DNA of 64,000 nucleotides from an uncultured Lachnospiraceae bacterium (lineage in GTDB: Bacteria; Bacillota; Clostridia; Lachnospirales; Lachnospiraceae). Where the stretch lies: NCBI GenBank assembly GCA_947177445.1, contig CAMWUL010000005.1, positions 1 through 64,000 of the forward strand. The letters run 5' to 3'. The position numbers and the translations under genes are program-made. Positions 232 through 9,513 of the stretch are shown here, in pieces (position 1 is the first letter of the stretch; the number at the start of each line of letters is the position of its first letter). The notes under the pieces were generated by a model that was given only the letters and a program-made list of their open reading frames with translations, had not been told where the DNA came from and ran no database searches.

Positions 232-358
232 ACATTTAAGCGCATTATGAACAGGTATTAAGGAGAAATCATTACAATACCTTAAGCGAAATAGGGCGCA
301 GGAAACAGGTATGGATTGGATTTGAAGACTCAATTATTTGAGAAAACAGGAGGCACAT

Positions 359-589
359 ATGGCAGATTTATATGGAATTGCATTTAATGTTGAGACCGCT
401 GAAGCGGATTGTGATCTTTCCGATTTTCCGGAGGTAGTAGTTGCCTCGACAGAAGAACAGGCGGTTGACTTTGCTAAAAGGATAAGTGCCTATTGCAAGT
501 TTGTTATACCGTTTAGAAATTCCGAGAGGCGAGAGAAGGTGGACTGGCATTATATTAAAGAGAATGAGATTGTAGCCAACGCAACCTGA
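359..589 (+). CDS. small conserved protein (76 aa), copy 1 of a flanking pair
   Basis: ATG at 359 preceded by an AGGAGG ribosome-binding site; protein MADLYGIAFNVE...CDLSDFPEVVVASTEEQAVDFAKRISAYCKFVIPFRN.. is near-identical to the ORF at 9289. Confidence 0.75.
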   Translation: MADLYGIAFNVETAEADCDLSDFPEVVVASTEEQAVDFAKRISAYCKFVIPFRNSERREKVDWHYIKENEIVANAT

Positions 590-709: not shown

Positions 710-2161
710 ATGTTACGAATCCATTTTACGTATACCAGTTCAGAGATATGTCCAAGCGTATACTTTCTACTGTTTTTTCGACTGACCGGCGCTTATTTGT
801 ATGAAAGCTATTTTGACTCAGATGCGCAGAAGCAGGGTATGCTTTTGAATTGTCTTCCGGAGGATGCGGAAATAGAGAAAAGGCATGCGTATGATGCCTA
901 TGATCTTGAGTTGTATTATATAGCAAACAATGAAGAATATGAAAAATATGCCTGCGAAGTAATGGATATGCCGGAAAGGGATGCAGCAAGGCATATATTG
1001 GTGTGCTCACACGAAGTAAACAGAGCAGAGAGTCCGTTGCTGCCGGCAGAAGGCGGTTCTGTAAATCATTCAGCAGTGGTTCACAAAGCAGGCGCAGAGC
1101 TTGCAGCACTGCGGGATGTTCTGGATGAACTGCTGCGCAGAGAGATTATTTTCAGGGATGAATATGCTGATTTACGAGATTGCCTGCAGCTTTATGAAAA
1201 GTATAGAATATGGGAGCTGTCGCTGCAGGGAAGATTCTTTTATGCTGCAAAGGAAGATAAAGAAGATTATGTAAGAATACGGGGACGATTCGTGAAGGCG
1301 TCAAAAGCTTATTTTGAGGAGTTTATGAGTCGGGGAGGCTGGAGAAATGCAGCGACGCTTCATCTGCAATATGCATTTTTGAATCTGGCGTATGAAGGAA
1401 ATTTACACTGTATCAGAGGCGGAGGCCCAATGATCTATACGGCGGACAGTCTGGCTCATATGTGCAGGAGTTTGCTGCAGAGCTCGGACGAAGAGGGCTG
1501 GAAGGAAAGCTTCAGTCTATTATTGGCTCAGGTATATGATGATCTTTTAATGGATTATAATAAGGCTTTTGAGTATTACATTGAGTGCTGCAATGATTTT
1601 AACGCGTATGCATATTATCGCAAGGGAATTATTTTTCAGGATCAGGCAGGAGATTATGAAAAGGCGCTGAAGTATTATTTGATCAGTGTGCAAATTTACC
1701 CTGAATACTATCGAGCATGGTACAGAATCGGACGGTGCTATATGCTGCTGGATCGATATAGGGACGCGTTGGAAGCGTTTCGTAATATTATGCGGATTCT
1801 GGAGCCCCGGTTGAATGCAGATGTTTTGCGGCCTATGGAAATAGAATATTTATTTAAGGCACAGAATCAGTGCGCATATATTTGCAATAAGGCGTTGGGC
1901 AGACTGGGACAGTCGGTTATAGAGAATCAGATTGCCGTAAAGGTATGGAAGACGATCAACACCAGCAGTTTTTTTCAGCAGGCAGGTTATTCGAAAAGGC
2001 CGAGGCAGCTTTGGGAGAGGACAAAGAAAGAGCTCTGTGTAAGAAAGATATATGATGAGATTGTGAAGCTGGCAGTCAAATTGGAGGACGATCAGCTGAA
2101 AAGAAATACGCAGGAGGAGATGACGCTTTATGAGGGAGAGTGCAATGAGCGGTACGGATGA
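710..2161 (+). CDS. TPR-like repeat protein, first gene of the RADAR-like operon
   Basis: 483 aa; C-terminal helical repeats (AYAYYRKGIIFQDQAGDYEKALKYYLISVQIYPEYYRAWYRIGRCYMLLDRYRDALEAFRNI); overlaps the start of the ATPase gene. True start could be downstream of 710. Confidence 0.8.
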   Translation: MLRIHFTYTSSEICPSVYFLLFFRLTGAYLYESYFDSDAQKQGMLLNCLPEDAEIEKRHAYDAYDLELYYIANNEEYEKYACEVMDMPERDAARHILVCSHEVNRAESPLLPAEGGSVNHSAVVHKAGAELAALRDVLDELLRREIIFRDEYADLRDCLQLYEKYRIWELSLQGRFFYAAKEDKEDYVRIRGRFVKASKAYFEEFMSRGGWRNAATLHLQYAFLNLAYEGNLHCIRGGGPMIYTADSLAHMCRSLLQSSDEEGWKESFSLLLAQVYDDLLMDYNKAFEYYIECCNDFNAYAYYRKGIIFQDQAGDYEKALKYYLISVQIYPEYYRAWYRIGRCYMLLDRYRDALEAFRNIMRILEPRLNADVLRPMEIEYLFKAQNQCAYICNKALGRLGQSVIENQIAVKVWKTINTSSFFQQAGYSKRPRQLWERTKKELCVRKIYDEIVKLAVKLEDDQLKRNTQEEMTLYEGECNERYG

Positions 2162-4736
2162 AATAATCAGGAGCAAAAGGCTGGATGCGGTTAACCGGAT
2201 TAAATATGAGCGTTATGAGGAATTTGAGGAATCTTTATTCGCAGATGTATATGAGAAGGCAGTTGTACTGACATCGTATATTGTTGATGCGAATTTGCGG
2301 GATGAGTGCGATAAAGCACTTGACGGAAGAGCCTGTATGGAAGAGCAATATAGTAATATTATTGCATTTTTAGGTGAGCGTGGCATGGGGAAATCCTCTG
2401 CCATGCTTTCCTTTGCTCTTTTTTTGAAAAAATATGACGACAAAAGAATAGAAGGACGATATAAGTTGTCTTGCAAAAGGGCCCGTAATATAAACCATCC
2501 GCTCAAGTTTTATGTATTGTCAAGAATTGATGCGGCCATGCTGGTGAAAGGCGAAAATCTGATCGACATTGTTCTTGCTAAAATGTGGAGCGAATTTCGC
2601 CAAAGGATCGATGAGAGTATGGGACAGCAGAGTGAGGGAAGGGAGACGAGAGAATGCTTTGAGGCTGTAAAAAAATCCTATGAGGTTTATCAGCGCGCTG
2701 TTTCAGGCAGGGATGATCGCAATATGACATCCATCAGGCAGATGGATGAGCTTGCACGGTGCTTGAATTTGCGGAATGATTTCAGGAAGCTTGTAAATGC
2801 GTATCTGGAGTATATGTCAGGCAGGTGCCGCAGTTCCTTTTTTGTTCTCACAATAGACGACTTGGATATAGTTTCCGGGCGCACGGATGAAATATTAGAG
2901 CAGATCAGATTGTTTTTGATGGTGCCCAGAGTGATTGTACTGGCGACGGCAGATTATGGCCGGCTTTTTTTGGAATGCAATAAGTCTCTGTCAAGCAGCC
3001 TGATATGTCCCGGCAATATTGAAGAGCGGGAAAAACGGCAGATCAGAGGCTATACGGAAAAGTATCTGGCAAAAATATTTCCCGGTAATATGAGAATACA
3101 TATGCCGCGGCTGAACGTGATAGGAGGTATTCCTTTTACACTTAATGTGCAGGAGCTGGGAATTATTGAACAGGAAAAGAATGCATCAACTACGATGGAT
3201 CAGACAGAGGACAAGCAGGCTCTATTTTGGATGATTGCGTATTATTCCGGAATTATGATGTATCCCTTTGACAATCATTTACATATCCTGCAGAAACAGT
3301 CGCTGCGTGCTATTGTCAATGAATTATTTGAGTTGAAAACTCTTAAGGATATGTCTGAGCAGAGCCGGTTTCGTGCTGTATGCCGATGGCTGCAGACTGC
3401 GCTGATCGATTATGGCAGAACGGTAACGGATAAAAAGACTTATGAACAAATTCAGATATTTTTGGGCAGGGAGGTGGAATCATTTTTTGACGTGACTGCG
3501 GAGGTGCTTTTGTCATGTATCGCTGAATTTGCACTTGAAAAAGCCAACAAATTCCGGCGGCGCATAAATTGGGCGGGCTATGGCAGAATCATGCTGTATC
3601 TGTATACCCTGGAGAAGGAGGGGTATCACGGCTTTGTCCAGTTTGTTTTAGTATGGTATTCGGTTCAGCTGAGTGAGGAGAAGAGACATATAGAAAATAT
3701 AAAGCAGGACGGAACAGATATATTTTATTCCATATTGGAAGAGAAAAACTACAGTGAGGCAAGAGGCAGGAATAGACTGAGCCCTGACAAGATAAGTACG
3801 ACGCATTTGCAGCTTGTGCTGGCGGTGTCGCCGGCAGAAGATGTCGAAAAGTGGATGCTGGATAATATGGATATGATCTGCGATGCATTTAGAGTCGCTA
3901 ATCTTGGGGAATGGAATTTGTGGGACAGTGACGGAGCGGATTATCTTCAATTATATGCAGAGAAAATAAGAGATAACAGTCCCATGTTCGAGATACAGGA
4001 TGCTGATTTGAGGGTGCGATATCGGGAAAAGCTTAGGGAAGGAAAAATTATTATAAAAATCACAGCTGGAAACGAGCTTGTAGAAACATCAAAATCATCC
4101 TTTGAGATAATGCTATACAATGCATTGGAATACAGAGAACATCTGGAGGGATTTTTGGCAAATATTTACAGTGCGTTGAGCAGGCTGGCCGAAAGGACTC
4201 AGCTGTCGGAAGAGTCATATAATTCAGAGGGCGAAGATGGTGCAGGGGATATAAAAGCTGTGGAAGGTGTGGGGAAGACGGCAAATCCAAAGGATATGAC
4301 GGATGTGCTGAATAGTATCATGCAAAATAAAGTATTTGAAGAAAGAATGCATCTGAAACAATTTGATGAATGGAAAAACGGAGAATTGTATTCGAAAGCT
4401 TTGGAGGAATGGCTGCCCGTAGAAAGCATGGAGGTAATGCTTCACCTGGCGGAGGAGATCTGTAAAATCAATGCCATGTATTACAGTGATAATCTATTAG
4501 AGAGGGTTATTCATTTTCAAAGCCGGCAGCTGGGAAAGATCATTGCAGAACTGGAAAAGGTGGAGAAGTATTATAGACCTGTAAAGGGAGAAAAACACGA
4601 GTATGCCGCCAGATGGAGAATGCTGCAGGAGATCGTTGATCCATATAACATCGGGAAATCATTTATCAGAATGGCACCTGATGTTGCCAGGAATGTGACG
4701 GATGCGAATGGGATAGGCGGGAATACGGAAGTTTAG
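2145..4736 (+). CDS. rdrA: RdrA-like P-loop ATPase (RADAR ATPase subunit)
   Basis: Walker A GERGMGKSS (2374-2400), Walker B-like FFVLTIDDLDI; about 860 aa; immediately precedes a divergent adenosine deaminase. ATG 2145 with a GAGGGAG site is preferred over 2130. Confidence 0.75.
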   Translation: MSGTDEIIRSKRLDAVNRIKYERYEEFEESLFADVYEKAVVLTSYIVDANLRDECDKALDGRACMEEQYSNIIAFLGERGMGKSSAMLSFALFLKKYDDKRIEGRYKLSCKRARNINHPLKFYVLSRIDAAMLVKGENLIDIVLAKMWSEFRQRIDESMGQQSEGRETRECFEAVKKSYEVYQRAVSGRDDRNMTSIRQMDELARCLNLRNDFRKLVNAYLEYMSGRCRSSFFVLTIDDLDIVSGRTDEILEQIRLFLMVPRVIVLATADYGRLFLECNKSLSSSLICPGNIEEREKRQIRGYTEKYLAKIFPGNMRIHMPRLNVIGGIPFTLNVQELGIIEQEKNASTTMDQTEDKQALFWMIAYYSGIMMYPFDNHLHILQKQSLRAIVNELFELKTLKDMSEQSRFRAVCRWLQTALIDYGRTVTDKKTYEQIQIFLGREVESFFDVTAEVLLSCIAEFALEKANKFRRRINWAGYGRIMLYLYTLEKEGYHGFVQFVLVWYSVQLSEEKRHIENIKQDGTDIFYSILEEKNYSEARGRNRLSPDKISTTHLQLVLAVSPAEDVEKWMLDNMDMICDAFRVANLGEWNLWDSDGADYLQLYAEKIRDNSPMFEIQDADLRVRYREKLREGKIIIKITAGNELVETSKSSFEIMLYNALEYREHLEGFLANIYSALSRLAERTQLSEESYNSEGEDGAGDIKAVEGVGKTANPKDMTDVLNSIMQNKVFEERMHLKQFDEWKNGELYSKALEEWLPVESMEVMLHLAEEICKINAMYYSDNLLERVIHFQSRQLGKIIAELEKVEKYYRPVKGEKHEYAARWRMLQEIVDPYNIGKSFIRMAPDVARNVTDANGIGGNTEV

Positions 4737-4752
4737 ATACAGGGGAATACAT

Positions 4753-7578
4753 ATGGATAATTTGCGGGCAGTGATCAAAAATCTTTTTTGCTATGTGCCG
4801 CCGCAGGAGATATTGACGGGAAAGGTACAATATAACAAAATCAGTAAAGATCTGTTTCAGCAGCTTGGCAGCGGATACATATCGCGGTACTCTAACGATG
4901 AACTGATCAATATGTATCATTTTCTGGAGACGGAATTCTGGTGGCAGAACAAGAAGCTGAAGGGTGAGGTGCCTTTCGATGAAAAGCAGGGCAAGTCTCT
5001 GAATGTGTTTGATGCGCTGGTGGCTTTTGAATATGCAGTGCTGATTGAGGAAAACGGAGTGCCCTTGTGCCAGTATAGCCAGCTGCTGCGCTGGCGCGAT
5101 ATGATTACTGCCTTGGAGGAGGATTTGTTTATTGCTTCCTACTTTGCATATAAAGATATTCTCAATGGGAAAAAGAGGAAAAACTTTTTTTGGAAACCTG
5201 TGATCGGACATAATAACAGAGCGCTGAATCGTCTGGTATCCAAAGGTGTGGCGGAAAATCACTTTCACCTGAAGGGCTCCGCACCACATTTTCATCTTTC
5301 ATGGATCAGCCTTATGAATCAGCCGGACAAGCCGGAATTTGCCAAGGAGCTTAACAAATATGAAGAAAACCGGCTGCAGAAAAATCTGGAGCTTCATTCT
5401 GATGTCCCATCGGGAAAGCTGAGTTATCTGTGGCGTCAGGCTGTGCTTATCAGAGTTTTCCTGTTTTCCGTGTTAAAGGGAGACTGTCTTTCCTGGAGGG
5501 ATGTGTATGTTTCTGCGAATGTTATATTGGAGGCTGTAAGCGGGAGTGAGTTTTTTGATGAGGTTTTAAGAGCGATTGAGATGAGCGGGCCTGCCGATAC
5601 ACAGAAGGTCAGGCTGGATGCTTACAGGCGATATTTGGGCGAGAAAGCAAGAGACATAGAATGGCGCTGCACGGTGAATAAGGTAGGCGCGTTATTGAAG
5701 GATGATGCTGATCTGGCAAACCATGCAGGTGTTATTCAGGAGAACATTGACAGGTTTCAAAGAAAATATGCCAAACGGGATTTGGATTATATGATATGCG
5801 AGGGGTGGCTGGCATACAATGGGCCTGCCGATACCAATGGTCCGCTCAGCGGGGAAAGATGGTTTTTGTATCGGATGTTTAAAGCAGTATATGCAAGGGA
5901 AGCGGAGTTTGAACCCTATATTAACTGGTTTTATCTTTATCTGATTATTAAGGCGAATATCAGAAGGGAGCTGGTACAGGCAAATGCCAATGTTGGATTT
6001 GACAATTTCCTGCGGTATCAAAACAGAAAGGATGTTTTTGTAGAAAATAGTATATATGAGAAGGTATATATACGTATGGCCGTAAGGGATACTATATATA
6101 ATCAGCACATTAAAAGCCTGGAGGCCAGGATAGTGCCCAAAAGAACGGTTGATGAAAATATCAGGGCAATCAGAAAATATGACAGTTGGATCACGGATGC
6201 CTTGGATGATGAGCGCGAGAAAAGAGATTTGCAGGAAAAATATTTTTATGTATATCATTTTGTAAAGGATTCCGAGAGAATCGAGAGAAGTAGTCCGGAT
6301 CTGGAAAAATTTCGTCATTATGCAAAGCGCTGGGAGGTAAAGGAGCAGGCGCTGGCTATAGCGGGACTTCGGGAAAGAGGTGTGCCTGAATCGGCCCGGA
6401 TTAAAGGGATAGATGCGGCTTCTCCTGAAATTTGGTGCAGACCGGAGGTATTTGCGCAGGCATTTCGATTTCTCAAAAATCATTGGGTGGAGAGCGGGCG
6501 GTTTCCATTTGCAGAGACGGAGTGCAGCACCCTTCTGGCTACATACCATGTGGGAGAGGATTTTCTTGATATTCTGGATGGACTTCGGGCAATCGACGAG
6601 GCGATTCTATTTTTGAATCTGCGCTGTGGGGACCGGCTGGGTCATGCGTTAGCGCTGGGCGTAGATATTGATGAGTGGTATGAGAGCAAGTCAAACAGAA
6701 TCTTGATCAACAAGATGGGCTATTTGGATAATCTTGTCTGGATATATGGGAAGCTGAGGCAATTTAATATAGCGGGATGCGATAAAGCAAAAACTTATAT
6801 TGAAAAGCGATTTCATGAATATTTTCTCGAGATATATGAAAATAACATGAAAAGAGATATGATCGAGTCAGTTATAAGACAGGCAGAGCAATATTATGAT
6901 AAGCATGGTATCAAGCATAATTACGGGCATGATATGCTGTCTTTTAATATTGATGGATATTATGATGCCTGGAAGCTCCGCGGAGATGCTCCAGAGCTTT
7001 ATGAGGACGGCTTTTTTAAGATCCACAATACAATTATGGATGAGTGGGACGAATATGCTTTGAACAGCGAATTCCCGCTGAACTATAGAATTCGTTATGT
7101 TCCGGAGACTGCCCTGCTTTATCATTTGTACCATTTTAACCCTGATGTGAAGATTGCGGGGGATGAGATGGTGGAGATCAAGATTCGGCCCTGCATCATA
7201 GAGGCCGTCAAGAAGGTACGTGAAGCAATGCAAAGGGAAATCTGCCGTATGGGAATTGCTATTGAGACTAATCCTTCCTCGAATTATTTGATCGGTACTT
7301 TCAGGCGGTACGATAAGCATCCTATCATTCAATGGTACAACTATGGACTGACATTAAATCAGGAGGAGCTGCAGCGGTGTCCCCAAATGCAGGTGTCGAT
7401 TAATACGGATGATCAGGGGGTATTTTCCACTTACATTGAGAATGAATACGCTTACTTGGCTTTGGCGCTGGAGAAGCGGAAGGATGAAAACGGTAACTTT
7501 GTATATAACAGAACCATGATTCTGCAGTGGCTGGATCATATCAGATTAATGGGGATTGACCAAAGCTTTTGGAGATGA
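4753..7578 (+). CDS. rdrB: RdrB-like divergent adenosine deaminase (RADAR deaminase subunit)
   Basis: 941 aa with ADA-superfamily motifs in order: NHFHLKGS (HxH, 5260-5268), YHVGED (HxGE, near 6547), DRLGHA (6634-6648), IETNPSSN, INTDDQGVF (NTDD 7402-7413); 16 nt downstream of the ATPase stop. Confidence 0.8.
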   Translation: MDNLRAVIKNLFCYVPPQEILTGKVQYNKISKDLFQQLGSGYISRYSNDELINMYHFLETEFWWQNKKLKGEVPFDEKQGKSLNVFDALVAFEYAVLIEENGVPLCQYSQLLRWRDMITALEEDLFIASYFAYKDILNGKKRKNFFWKPVIGHNNRALNRLVSKGVAENHFHLKGSAPHFHLSWISLMNQPDKPEFAKELNKYEENRLQKNLELHSDVPSGKLSYLWRQAVLIRVFLFSVLKGDCLSWRDVYVSANVILEAVSGSEFFDEVLRAIEMSGPADTQKVRLDAYRRYLGEKARDIEWRCTVNKVGALLKDDADLANHAGVIQENIDRFQRKYAKRDLDYMICEGWLAYNGPADTNGPLSGERWFLYRMFKAVYAREAEFEPYINWFYLYLIIKANIRRELVQANANVGFDNFLRYQNRKDVFVENSIYEKVYIRMAVRDTIYNQHIKSLEARIVPKRTVDENIRAIRKYDSWITDALDDEREKRDLQEKYFYVYHFVKDSERIERSSPDLEKFRHYAKRWEVKEQALAIAGLRERGVPESARIKGIDAASPEIWCRPEVFAQAFRFLKNHWVESGRFPFAETECSTLLATYHVGEDFLDILDGLRAIDEAILFLNLRCGDRLGHALALGVDIDEWYESKSNRILINKMGYLDNLVWIYGKLRQFNIAGCDKAKTYIEKRFHEYFLEIYENNMKRDMIESVIRQAEQYYDKHGIKHNYGHDMLSFNIDGYYDAWKLRGDAPELYEDGFFKIHNTIMDEWDEYALNSEFPLNYRIRYVPETALLYHLYHFNPDVKIAGDEMVEIKIRPCIIEAVKKVREAMQREICRMGIAIETNPSSNYLIGTFRRYDKHPIIQWYNYGLTLNQEELQRCPQMQVSINTDDQGVFSTYIENEYAYLALALEKRKDENGNFVYNRTMILQWLDHIRLMGIDQSFWR

Positions 7579-7591
7579 ATCGTGTTAAGAT

Positions 7592-9214
7592 ATGGATAAC
7601 TTTGAGAAATTGCGGATGTCGGGATCCTTTTATGTTGATAAGTCATCATTTATAAAAGAGTGGTGGGAACAGGATGACGATGTTACTTTAATTACACGTC
7701 CACGCCGTTTTGGAAAAACGTTAAACATGAGCATGATGGAATGCTTCTTTTCTATAAAGTATGCAGGACGAAGCGAGCTGTTTGAGGACCTGTCTGTTTG
7801 GAACGACGAGATTTTTCGGAAGCTTCAGGGGACATTTCCGGTGATATTTGTGAGCTTTGCAGGGGTAAAGGCAAACAATTTCCGCGGGGCTAAGGACGGT
7901 ATTATCAAAGCTATAGCTAATGCATATAATGCCTGTTCCTATGTAAAGGAAAGCGGGGTTTTGACAGAGGAGGAGAAATCTTTTTACGATATTTTTCAAG
8001 ACTATTCGGTTAATCCGTCTCCGGAAAAGAGGATTTCGGATCTTGTTGTAACTGCGTCGCTTCAGACGCTTGCGTTGTATATGGAGCGCCTTTACAGTAA
8101 AAAGGTTTTGATATTTTTGGATGAGTATGATACGCCGCTGCAGGAGGCGTATATATCAGGATATTGGGATGAACTGGCGGGCTTTGTCAGAGAATTATTC
8201 AATTTAACCTTTAAGGAAAATAAGGGGCTAGATCGCGCAATTATGACAGGAATCACCCGTGTAAGTAAGGAATCTATCTTCTCGGATTTAAACAATTTGG
8301 AAGTAGTAACTACGACGTCAGATAAATACTGTGAGTCGTTTGGATTTACAGAAGACGAAGTCAATGAGGCGCTGAACCAGTTGGGCAGGGAGCTATGCTG
8401 GGACGTGTGCGGCATTGGTATGACGGATTTCGATTTGGCAGTAGGGAAGGAATCTATAATCCCTGGTCAATTACAAAGTTTTTGGATACAGGCATGTTTG
8501 ATACGTATTGGGCAAACACGAGTTCCAACAGCTTGGCCGGGAGGCTTATTCGAGAGGGCGGAGCTGAAATAAAGATTGCAATGGAGGATTTGCTGGAGGG
8601 AAAGAGTATTGAAACTACGATAGATGAGGAAGTGGTGTTTGACCAATTGGAAGATAATAGCAGTGCAGTGTGGAGTCTGCTTCTTGCTGCGGGTTATCTA
8701 AAGGTGACGGGTATATCTGAAAGCAGTGATGAAGAGGATACTATGTACAGTCTGGCGTTAACTGATCTTGAGGTTAAAAAAGAATTTCGCAGAATGATAC
8801 GCAGCTGGTTCAGCAGATCTTCCGTGCGCTACAATGATTTTATAAAAGCACTTCAGGCGGACAATGTGAGCTATATGAATCAATATATGAACAGGGTGGC
8901 ATCGTCAGTGTTTAGCTTTTTCGACACAGGGAAGCATCCCTCGGGGCAGTCGGAGCCGGAGCGTTTTTATCATGGGTTTGTATTGGGGCTGATTGTTGAT
9001 TCGCAGTTGGATTATGTGATTACGTCTAACCGCGAAAGCGGCTTCGGAAACAACGTTGGAAGAAACCGTGCAGAGTGCTTTAAACCAGATTGATGAAAAA
9101 GGTTATAATAAAGTACTGATGGAAAGGGGAATACCTGAAGGCCGGATCCGGCATTATGGATTTGCGTTTGAGGGAAAGCAGGTGCTTATAGGGGACAGCC
9201 GAATGAGGCCCTAA
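7592..9214 (+). pseudogene. AAA-ATPase-like / PD-(D/E)XK nuclease family protein, disrupted
   Basis: N-part MDNFEKLRMSGSFYVDKSSFIKEWWEQDDDVTLITRPRRFGKTLNMSM; frame changes near 8395 (continues as VRHWYDGFRFGSREGIYNPWSI); after SGFG (about 9045-9055) the frame shifts again to ETTLEETVQSALNQIDEKGYNKVLMERGIPEGRIRHYGFAFEGKQVLIG. Confidence 0.8.
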
Positions 9215-9288
9215 AACAGCTGTTGCGCTAACGGGGAAGAGAGGGCTAGTCAGCTGAAATAACAGTAACGATACAGCAGGAGGAATAT

Positions 9289-9513
9289 ATGGCAGATTTA
9301 TATGGGGTTGCATTTGCGGTTGAGAACAATGAAGAGAATTGTGATCTTTCCGATTTTCCGGAGGTAGTGGTTGCTTCAACGGAAGAACAGGCAGTTGACT
9401 TTGCGAAAAGGATAAGCGCTTATTGCAAATTTGTTATACCATTTAGGAATCCTGAGAGACGTGAAAAGATGGATTGGCGCTACATTAAGGAGAATGAAAT
9501 TGCGAGTAAGTAA
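9289..9513 (+). CDS. small conserved protein, copy 2 of the flanking pair
   Basis: AGGAGG site before ATG 9289; MADLYGVAFAVENNEENCDLSDFPEVVVASTEEQAVDFAKRISAYCKFVIPFRNPERREKMDWRYIKENEI, about 87% identical by eye over 71 aa to 359-589. Confidence 0.75.
   Translation: MADLYGVAFAVENNEENCDLSDFPEVVVASTEEQAVDFAKRISAYCKFVIPFRNPERREKMDWRYIKENEIASK

Follow-up and report, generated by a model that had tools for sequence, protein, structure and literature searches.

The window analysed here, a stretch of 64,000 nucleotides from an uncultured Lachnospiraceae bacterium (GenBank assembly GCA_947177445.1, contig CAMWUL010000005.1, positions 1 to 64,000), carries near its start a gene for a tetratricopeptide repeat (TPR) protein directly ahead of genes resembling rdrA and rdrB, the two-gene core of the RADAR phage defense system. 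This arrangement raises the question of whether the TPR protein is a component of RADAR and, if so, what it contributes to a system whose solved representatives assemble from RdrA and RdrB alone (PMC9994260).

Layout of the operon and divergence of the RADAR-type pair

The TPR gene is an intact reading frame whose product starts with MLRIHFTY, and it is followed on the same strand by the rdrA-like and rdrB-like genes in the order A-B (Table 1). The RdrA-like frame offers ATG codons at 2130 and 2145; since the latter corresponds to the start of the homologue in locus L013, we took it as the start of rdrA, which results in a gene overlap of 17 nt and bears out the overlap that a sequence-only reading of this DNA had noted from the end of the first frame at 2161 and the ATPase ATG at 2145. 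The rdrB gene begins 16 nt past the end of rdrA. Translational coupling of the TPR gene to rdrA had also been proposed, and for the window locus, where the overlap is real, it may hold; however, the spacing between the two genes varies from -32 to +119 nt across the loci described below, and a conserved gene overlap was therefore rejected. A gene matching PF09820 (AAA-ATPase_like) lies 13 nt after rdrB and is perhaps broken, given that it is read as two overlapping ORFs (7592-8572 and 8395-9093) within 7592-9093.

Table 1. Features of the operon and its flanks, in window coordinates
Feature	Position (nt)	Strand	Basis or context
Left copy of 233-nt direct repeat (two copies 84% identical), with 76-aa ORF	340..572	+	Flanks operon
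TPR protein, candidate third RADAR component, 483 aa	710..2161	+	ORF; Pfam TPR; homologues ahead of rdrA in nine other loci
N-terminal alpha/beta domain, residues 1-143	710..1138	+	Family alignment; AlphaFold2 strand/helix order
C-terminal helical-repeat (TPR) domain, residues 149-482	1154..2155	+	Pfam TPR; AlphaFold2 model; PDB fold matches
Divergent RdrA AAA+ ATPase	2145..4736	+	NF041743; PADLOC RdrA; Walker motifs
Divergent RdrB adenosine deaminase	4753..7578	+	NF041744; PDB 8fnv/8fnw; active-site motifs
Right copy of the same 233-nt direct repeat (ORFs of the copies 74-76 aa)	9270..9502	+	Flanks operon

The window ATPase matched the NCBIfam RdrA model NF041743 with an E value of 3.8e-12 and 45.5 bits (equivalog cut-off 600), and the deaminase matched the RdrB model NF041744 with an E value of 3e-55 and 188.2 bits (equivalog cut-off 800), so that neither protein reaches its cut-off, which is an annotation threshold and not a biochemical feature. 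The ATPase also matched PADLOC RdrA (E 9.5e-6), and the deaminase matched the solved RdrB structures 8fnv/8fnw in the PDB (E 2.5e-25), while a search of solved structures with the RdrA sequence returned no match. Both the Walker A (GERGMGKS, nt 2373-2396) and Walker B (FFVLTIDDLD, nt 2838-2867) motifs of RdrA are intact, as are the HFH, HVGED, RLGH and NTDD motifs of RdrB. The window operon thus resembles classical RADAR in that an adenosine deaminase whose active-site motifs are intact comes immediately after an AAA+ ATPase, and differs from it in its scores, far below the NCBIfam cut-offs, and in the TPR gene that stands ahead of the described core. Because the scores fall below the equivalog range, we call the pair, as judged from its sequences, a homologous but very divergent RADAR-type system and not standard RADAR. 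RADAR is further characterised by a heptameric RdrA that sits on a dodecameric RdrB, by ATP-to-ITP activity and by phage protection.

The 233-nt repeat that flanks the operon has only two copies in the assembly, and the GC content of the operon is ~0.43, compared with 0.497 for positions 11000-64000. The repeats and the low GC content would fit horizontal acquisition of the operon in a window that starts at the contig end, where the left flank beyond it is absent.

Domains and predicted fold of the TPR protein

The sequence-only reading had placed TPR/SEL1-like helical repeats in the C-terminal half of the protein. Pfam TPR_1 (35.5 bits, cut-off 27.8) and TPR_2 (28 bits, cut-off 27) matched repeats at about residues 271-361, whereas no SEL1 family matched the 483-aa protein at E values up to 1, and we therefore retained the TPR assignment and rejected SEL1 repeats. 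For the N-terminal half, the same reading had recognised nothing, in agreement with the lack of a Pfam match there; the family alignment nevertheless reveals a homologous domain conserved across the family, with an FFRxxGxxVxE motif near residues 22-32. No membrane segment is predicted in the 483-aa protein, no hydrophobic stretch being above threshold, and the protein is accordingly predicted to be soluble.

An AlphaFold2 model (three sequences; mean pLDDT 80, pTM 0.85) shows an alpha/beta domain at residues 3-143 followed by helical repeats at residues 149-482, the latter with pLDDT values mostly of 80-96. The PDB matches in a whole-chain fold search were TPR superhelices, including APC/C and BBSome subunits. 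By sequence and fold, the C-terminal helical repeat is like that of TPR proteins (Pfam TPR_1 and its relatives; MamA, CTPR and APC/C subunits), to which the window protein adds the conserved N-terminal domain without a Pfam match. Modelled in isolation, this domain reached a pLDDT of 62, which is low confidence, and its fold matches, none of them significant, were headed by a SEFIR-containing entry (E 0.02), followed by TIR domains and flavodoxins. The strand/helix order of the model and the several TIR/SEFIR entries among the top matches are reminiscent of TIR/SEFIR domains, whereas the modest best E value, the flavodoxins matching about equally well and the lack of a sequence match are not. 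Given these weak fold matches and the missing Pfam match, a TIR assignment is not claimed, and the model weakly suggests a TIR/SEFIR/flavodoxin-like fold, as a lead only.

Homologues of the TPR protein beside other rdrA genes

Nine further loci have a member of the TPR family immediately ahead of rdrA in the same orientation, making ten genomes with the window; the possibility that other rdrAB loci carry no homologue, raised together with the sequence-only reading, was thus checked and did not occur. Locus L013, also from Lachnospiraceae, contains the same trio, with identities to the window proteins of 44% for TPR, 46% for RdrA and 68% for RdrB in the genome scan, and a same-genus genome (G016; loci L002 and L055) contains homologues with 33-35% identity for TPR and 37% for RdrA. 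We then ran RdrB profiles against genomes at four taxonomic levels, in overlapping sets (order, 392 genomes; class, 391; phylum, 399; family, 358), and read the genes around each match, which gave seven more loci (L042, L045, L084, L086, L087, L088 and L090) with the TPR gene in the same position. In L055 (G016:C59), rdrA and rdrB are both read in more than one frame, which reflects decay or an assembly error; solely for the tree, the translations of the two overlapping frames of this rdrB were merged into a single row.

The ten TPR homologues are 14-44% identical in pairwise comparison. A profile of either half of the protein, N-terminal or C-terminal, recovered all ten and nothing else from 1785 ORFs of the scanned loci. 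Since the ten are themselves contained in the profiles, what counts here is that no other ORF matched, along with the N-terminal scores obtained when each member was left out in turn (E 4e-37 to 1.5e-4, with the alignment kept fixed). Our first TPR profile matched only the window and G319 among the 392 genomes of the order, both beside RADAR, in a search that was not exhaustive and missed the very divergent L042. With the ten-row profile, each of three genomes yielded one full-length member, the remaining matches being local TPR. No strong full-length bacterial homologue away from rdrA was found in the genomes searched. By tblastn, relatives of the TPR protein were found in neither phage nor plasmid records, and relatives of RdrB were not found in phage records, while plasmid records gave seven distant RdrB matches. 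A scan of viral contigs for RdrB gave no match with a single sequence and six loci with an alignment.

Co-inheritance with the RADAR genes

In an RdrB tree of 35 rows, for which a root was not inferred, a divergent clade of 23 rows (100/99) stands apart from the classical RADAR deaminases, which include the annotated Aliivibrio RdrB (L092) on a long branch. Twelve rows of the divergent clade (100/99) are either without the TPR gene or truncated at the end of a contig. The gene is present in nine of the ten rows of their sister group (87/85) and in L042, i.e., in 10 of the 11 rows outside the 12-row group. The TPR label requires three changes on this tree compared with 8.8 in shuffles, and none of 500 shuffles was as low. 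The one row without it, L041, lies inside the TPR-bearing branch and has its rdrA in two ORFs; a single gain of the TPR gene plus a loss in L041 is possible.

TPR distances correlate with those of RdrA (Mantel rho 0.81, p 2e-4) and RdrB (rho 0.53, p 1e-3), and the TPR and RdrB trees have the same subgroups. The TPR gene is therefore co-inherited with the RADAR genes, although correlated distances alone do not show contact, and shared vertical history alone would also yield correlated divergence. Between the window and L013, RdrB has changed more slowly (68% identity) than the TPR protein (45%) and the C-terminal part of RdrA (36%), and it is the slowest of the proteins in four other pairs as well. 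The conserved upstream homologues that the sequence-only reading had called for are thus present, in ten loci that cluster on the RdrB tree and co-diverge with RdrA.

Relation to described RADAR subtypes

The RADAR subtypes described so far are stand-alone, Csx27-associated and SLATT-associated (rdrABC, rdrABCD) (PMC7699616). The window operon shares with the Csx27 and SLATT subtypes the combination of a RADAR core with an accessory gene, but here the accessory is a soluble alpha/beta-TPR protein encoded by the first gene and, given its 483 residues and the lack of a hydrophobic segment above threshold, not a small SLATT/Csx27-type membrane protein. To this extent the architecture differs from those subtypes, as had been expected; it is not, however, a simple alternative to them, since L084 and L086 contain both the TPR gene and a DUF4231/SLATT-like gene in the same locus, and we rejected the TPR protein as a replacement for the SLATT accessory. 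No prior account of RADAR with a tetratricopeptide protein was found in the literature searched, where no paper joined RADAR, tetratricopeptide, adenosine deaminase and phage defense; subscription papers and supplements lay outside that search, and an earlier description is possible. As far as this literature goes, the accessory is undescribed as proposed, and the loci likely represent a divergent Clostridia RADAR subtype with a dedicated TPR component, a variant on known RADAR.

Several TPR-free RADAR loci have other neighbours. SLATT/DUF4231 genes lie beside three of them (L070:327-836; L041:3689-4207, after rdrB; L057:11732-12439). In L047, from the same clade, a 1083-aa leucine-rich-repeat protein, which may be another repeat-protein accessory, is encoded 6 nt after rdrB (L047:12869-16120), and in the clade member L085 a 602-aa MORN-repeat protein is encoded upstream of rdrA with a gap of 88 nt (L085:7272-9080). 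In a further locus, L043:864-2872, an RdrB-like gene is followed by a gene for a 345-aa protein that by eye looks like a nucleotidyltransferase (no Pfam match) and then by one for a TIR-STING protein, suggesting a CBASS adjoining RADAR.

A solitary homologue on a phage contig

A 68-kb IMG/VR contig (L094; IMGVR_UViG_3300006217_000030) encodes a 436-aa homologue of the TPR protein (L094:9001-10311; residues 1-413, 27% identity), flanked by anaerobic nucleotide-reductase genes on one side and dUTPase and integrase genes on the other, with tail-type proteins encoded elsewhere on the contig. No RdrB was found across the 68-kb record. In the TPR tree, this homologue groups with those of the window, L013 and L055 (98/97). 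That it acts as a RADAR decoy or blocker is a reasonable guess; a cargo gene serving some different function is also possible.

Possible roles of the TPR protein

Our preferred explanation, to which we assign about an even chance, is that the TPR protein serves this divergent RADAR subtype, found in Lachnospiraceae and related Clostridia, as a dedicated third subunit, one that docks on RdrA and senses or relays a signal. The TPR superhelix would dock on the RdrA ring, probably on its fast-evolving C-terminal lobe, and together with the N-terminal alpha/beta domain it would sense, or relay, a phage-made protein or state; RdrA would then license RdrB to convert (d)ATP into (d)ITP, leading to abortive infection. 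The simplest reading of a co-inherited protein whose rate of divergence is close to that of RdrA and above that of RdrB is a partner of RdrA involved in sensing or gating, and the solitary phage copy without RdrB looks as a decoy aimed at such a contact might look. RADAR produces (d)ITP, and the limitations section of PMC9994260 names its trigger as still to be found; this, together with the proposal of the C-terminal lobe of RdrA as sensor (PMC9994260), we also count for a sensing role. Since 12 members of the same clade and the classical RADARs are without the TPR gene or truncated at the end of a contig, the protein would not be essential to RADAR chemistry. L041, which lacks the gene inside the TPR-bearing branch, counts against a dedicated subunit, though with its rdrA in two ORFs, and fast divergence is also expected of a structural or an inhibitory partner. 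It is tempting to speculate that a separate TIR-like/TPR sensor reads the infection trigger in this subtype and that phages counter it with a solo sensor copy as decoy, but we consider this full scenario unlikely.

The TPR protein could instead act as an antitoxin-like gate that keeps RdrA-RdrB inactive until it is released or degraded on infection. As the product of the first gene it would be made ahead of a deaminase that is toxic when overexpressed alone (PMC9994260), and a solitary phage copy would be a ready-made RADAR blocker. Related genomes nevertheless tolerate RADARs without the TPR gene, and the protein has no similarity to antitoxin families; we regard inhibition as unlikely. TPR superhelices often scaffold multi-protein complexes, and the APC/C and BBSome subunits among the fold matches would suit a scaffold or chaperone for the assembly of a very large RdrA-RdrB complex. 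RADAR indeed functions in assemblies that reach up to 10 MDa (PMC9994260), but the solved systems require no third protein for assembly (PMC9994260), the gene is absent elsewhere in the same RdrB clade, and scaffolding leaves both the N-terminal domain and the phage copy unexplained; we regard it as unlikely but, like inhibition, as a live rival. That the gene is an unrelated passenger travelling with the operon, with no role in RADAR, would agree with the variable spacing and with the many RADARs that lack it, yet it is very improbable for a gene kept beside rdrA in ten genomes despite protein divergence to 14-45% identity and with no strong homologue away from rdrA.

Because the curated RdrA and RdrB equivalog models score so far below their cut-offs, current annotation may miss this Clostridia subtype. 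If the TPR protein is a third subunit, a removable component co-inherited with RdrA would provide a direct handle on the activation, toxicity and assembly of RADAR.
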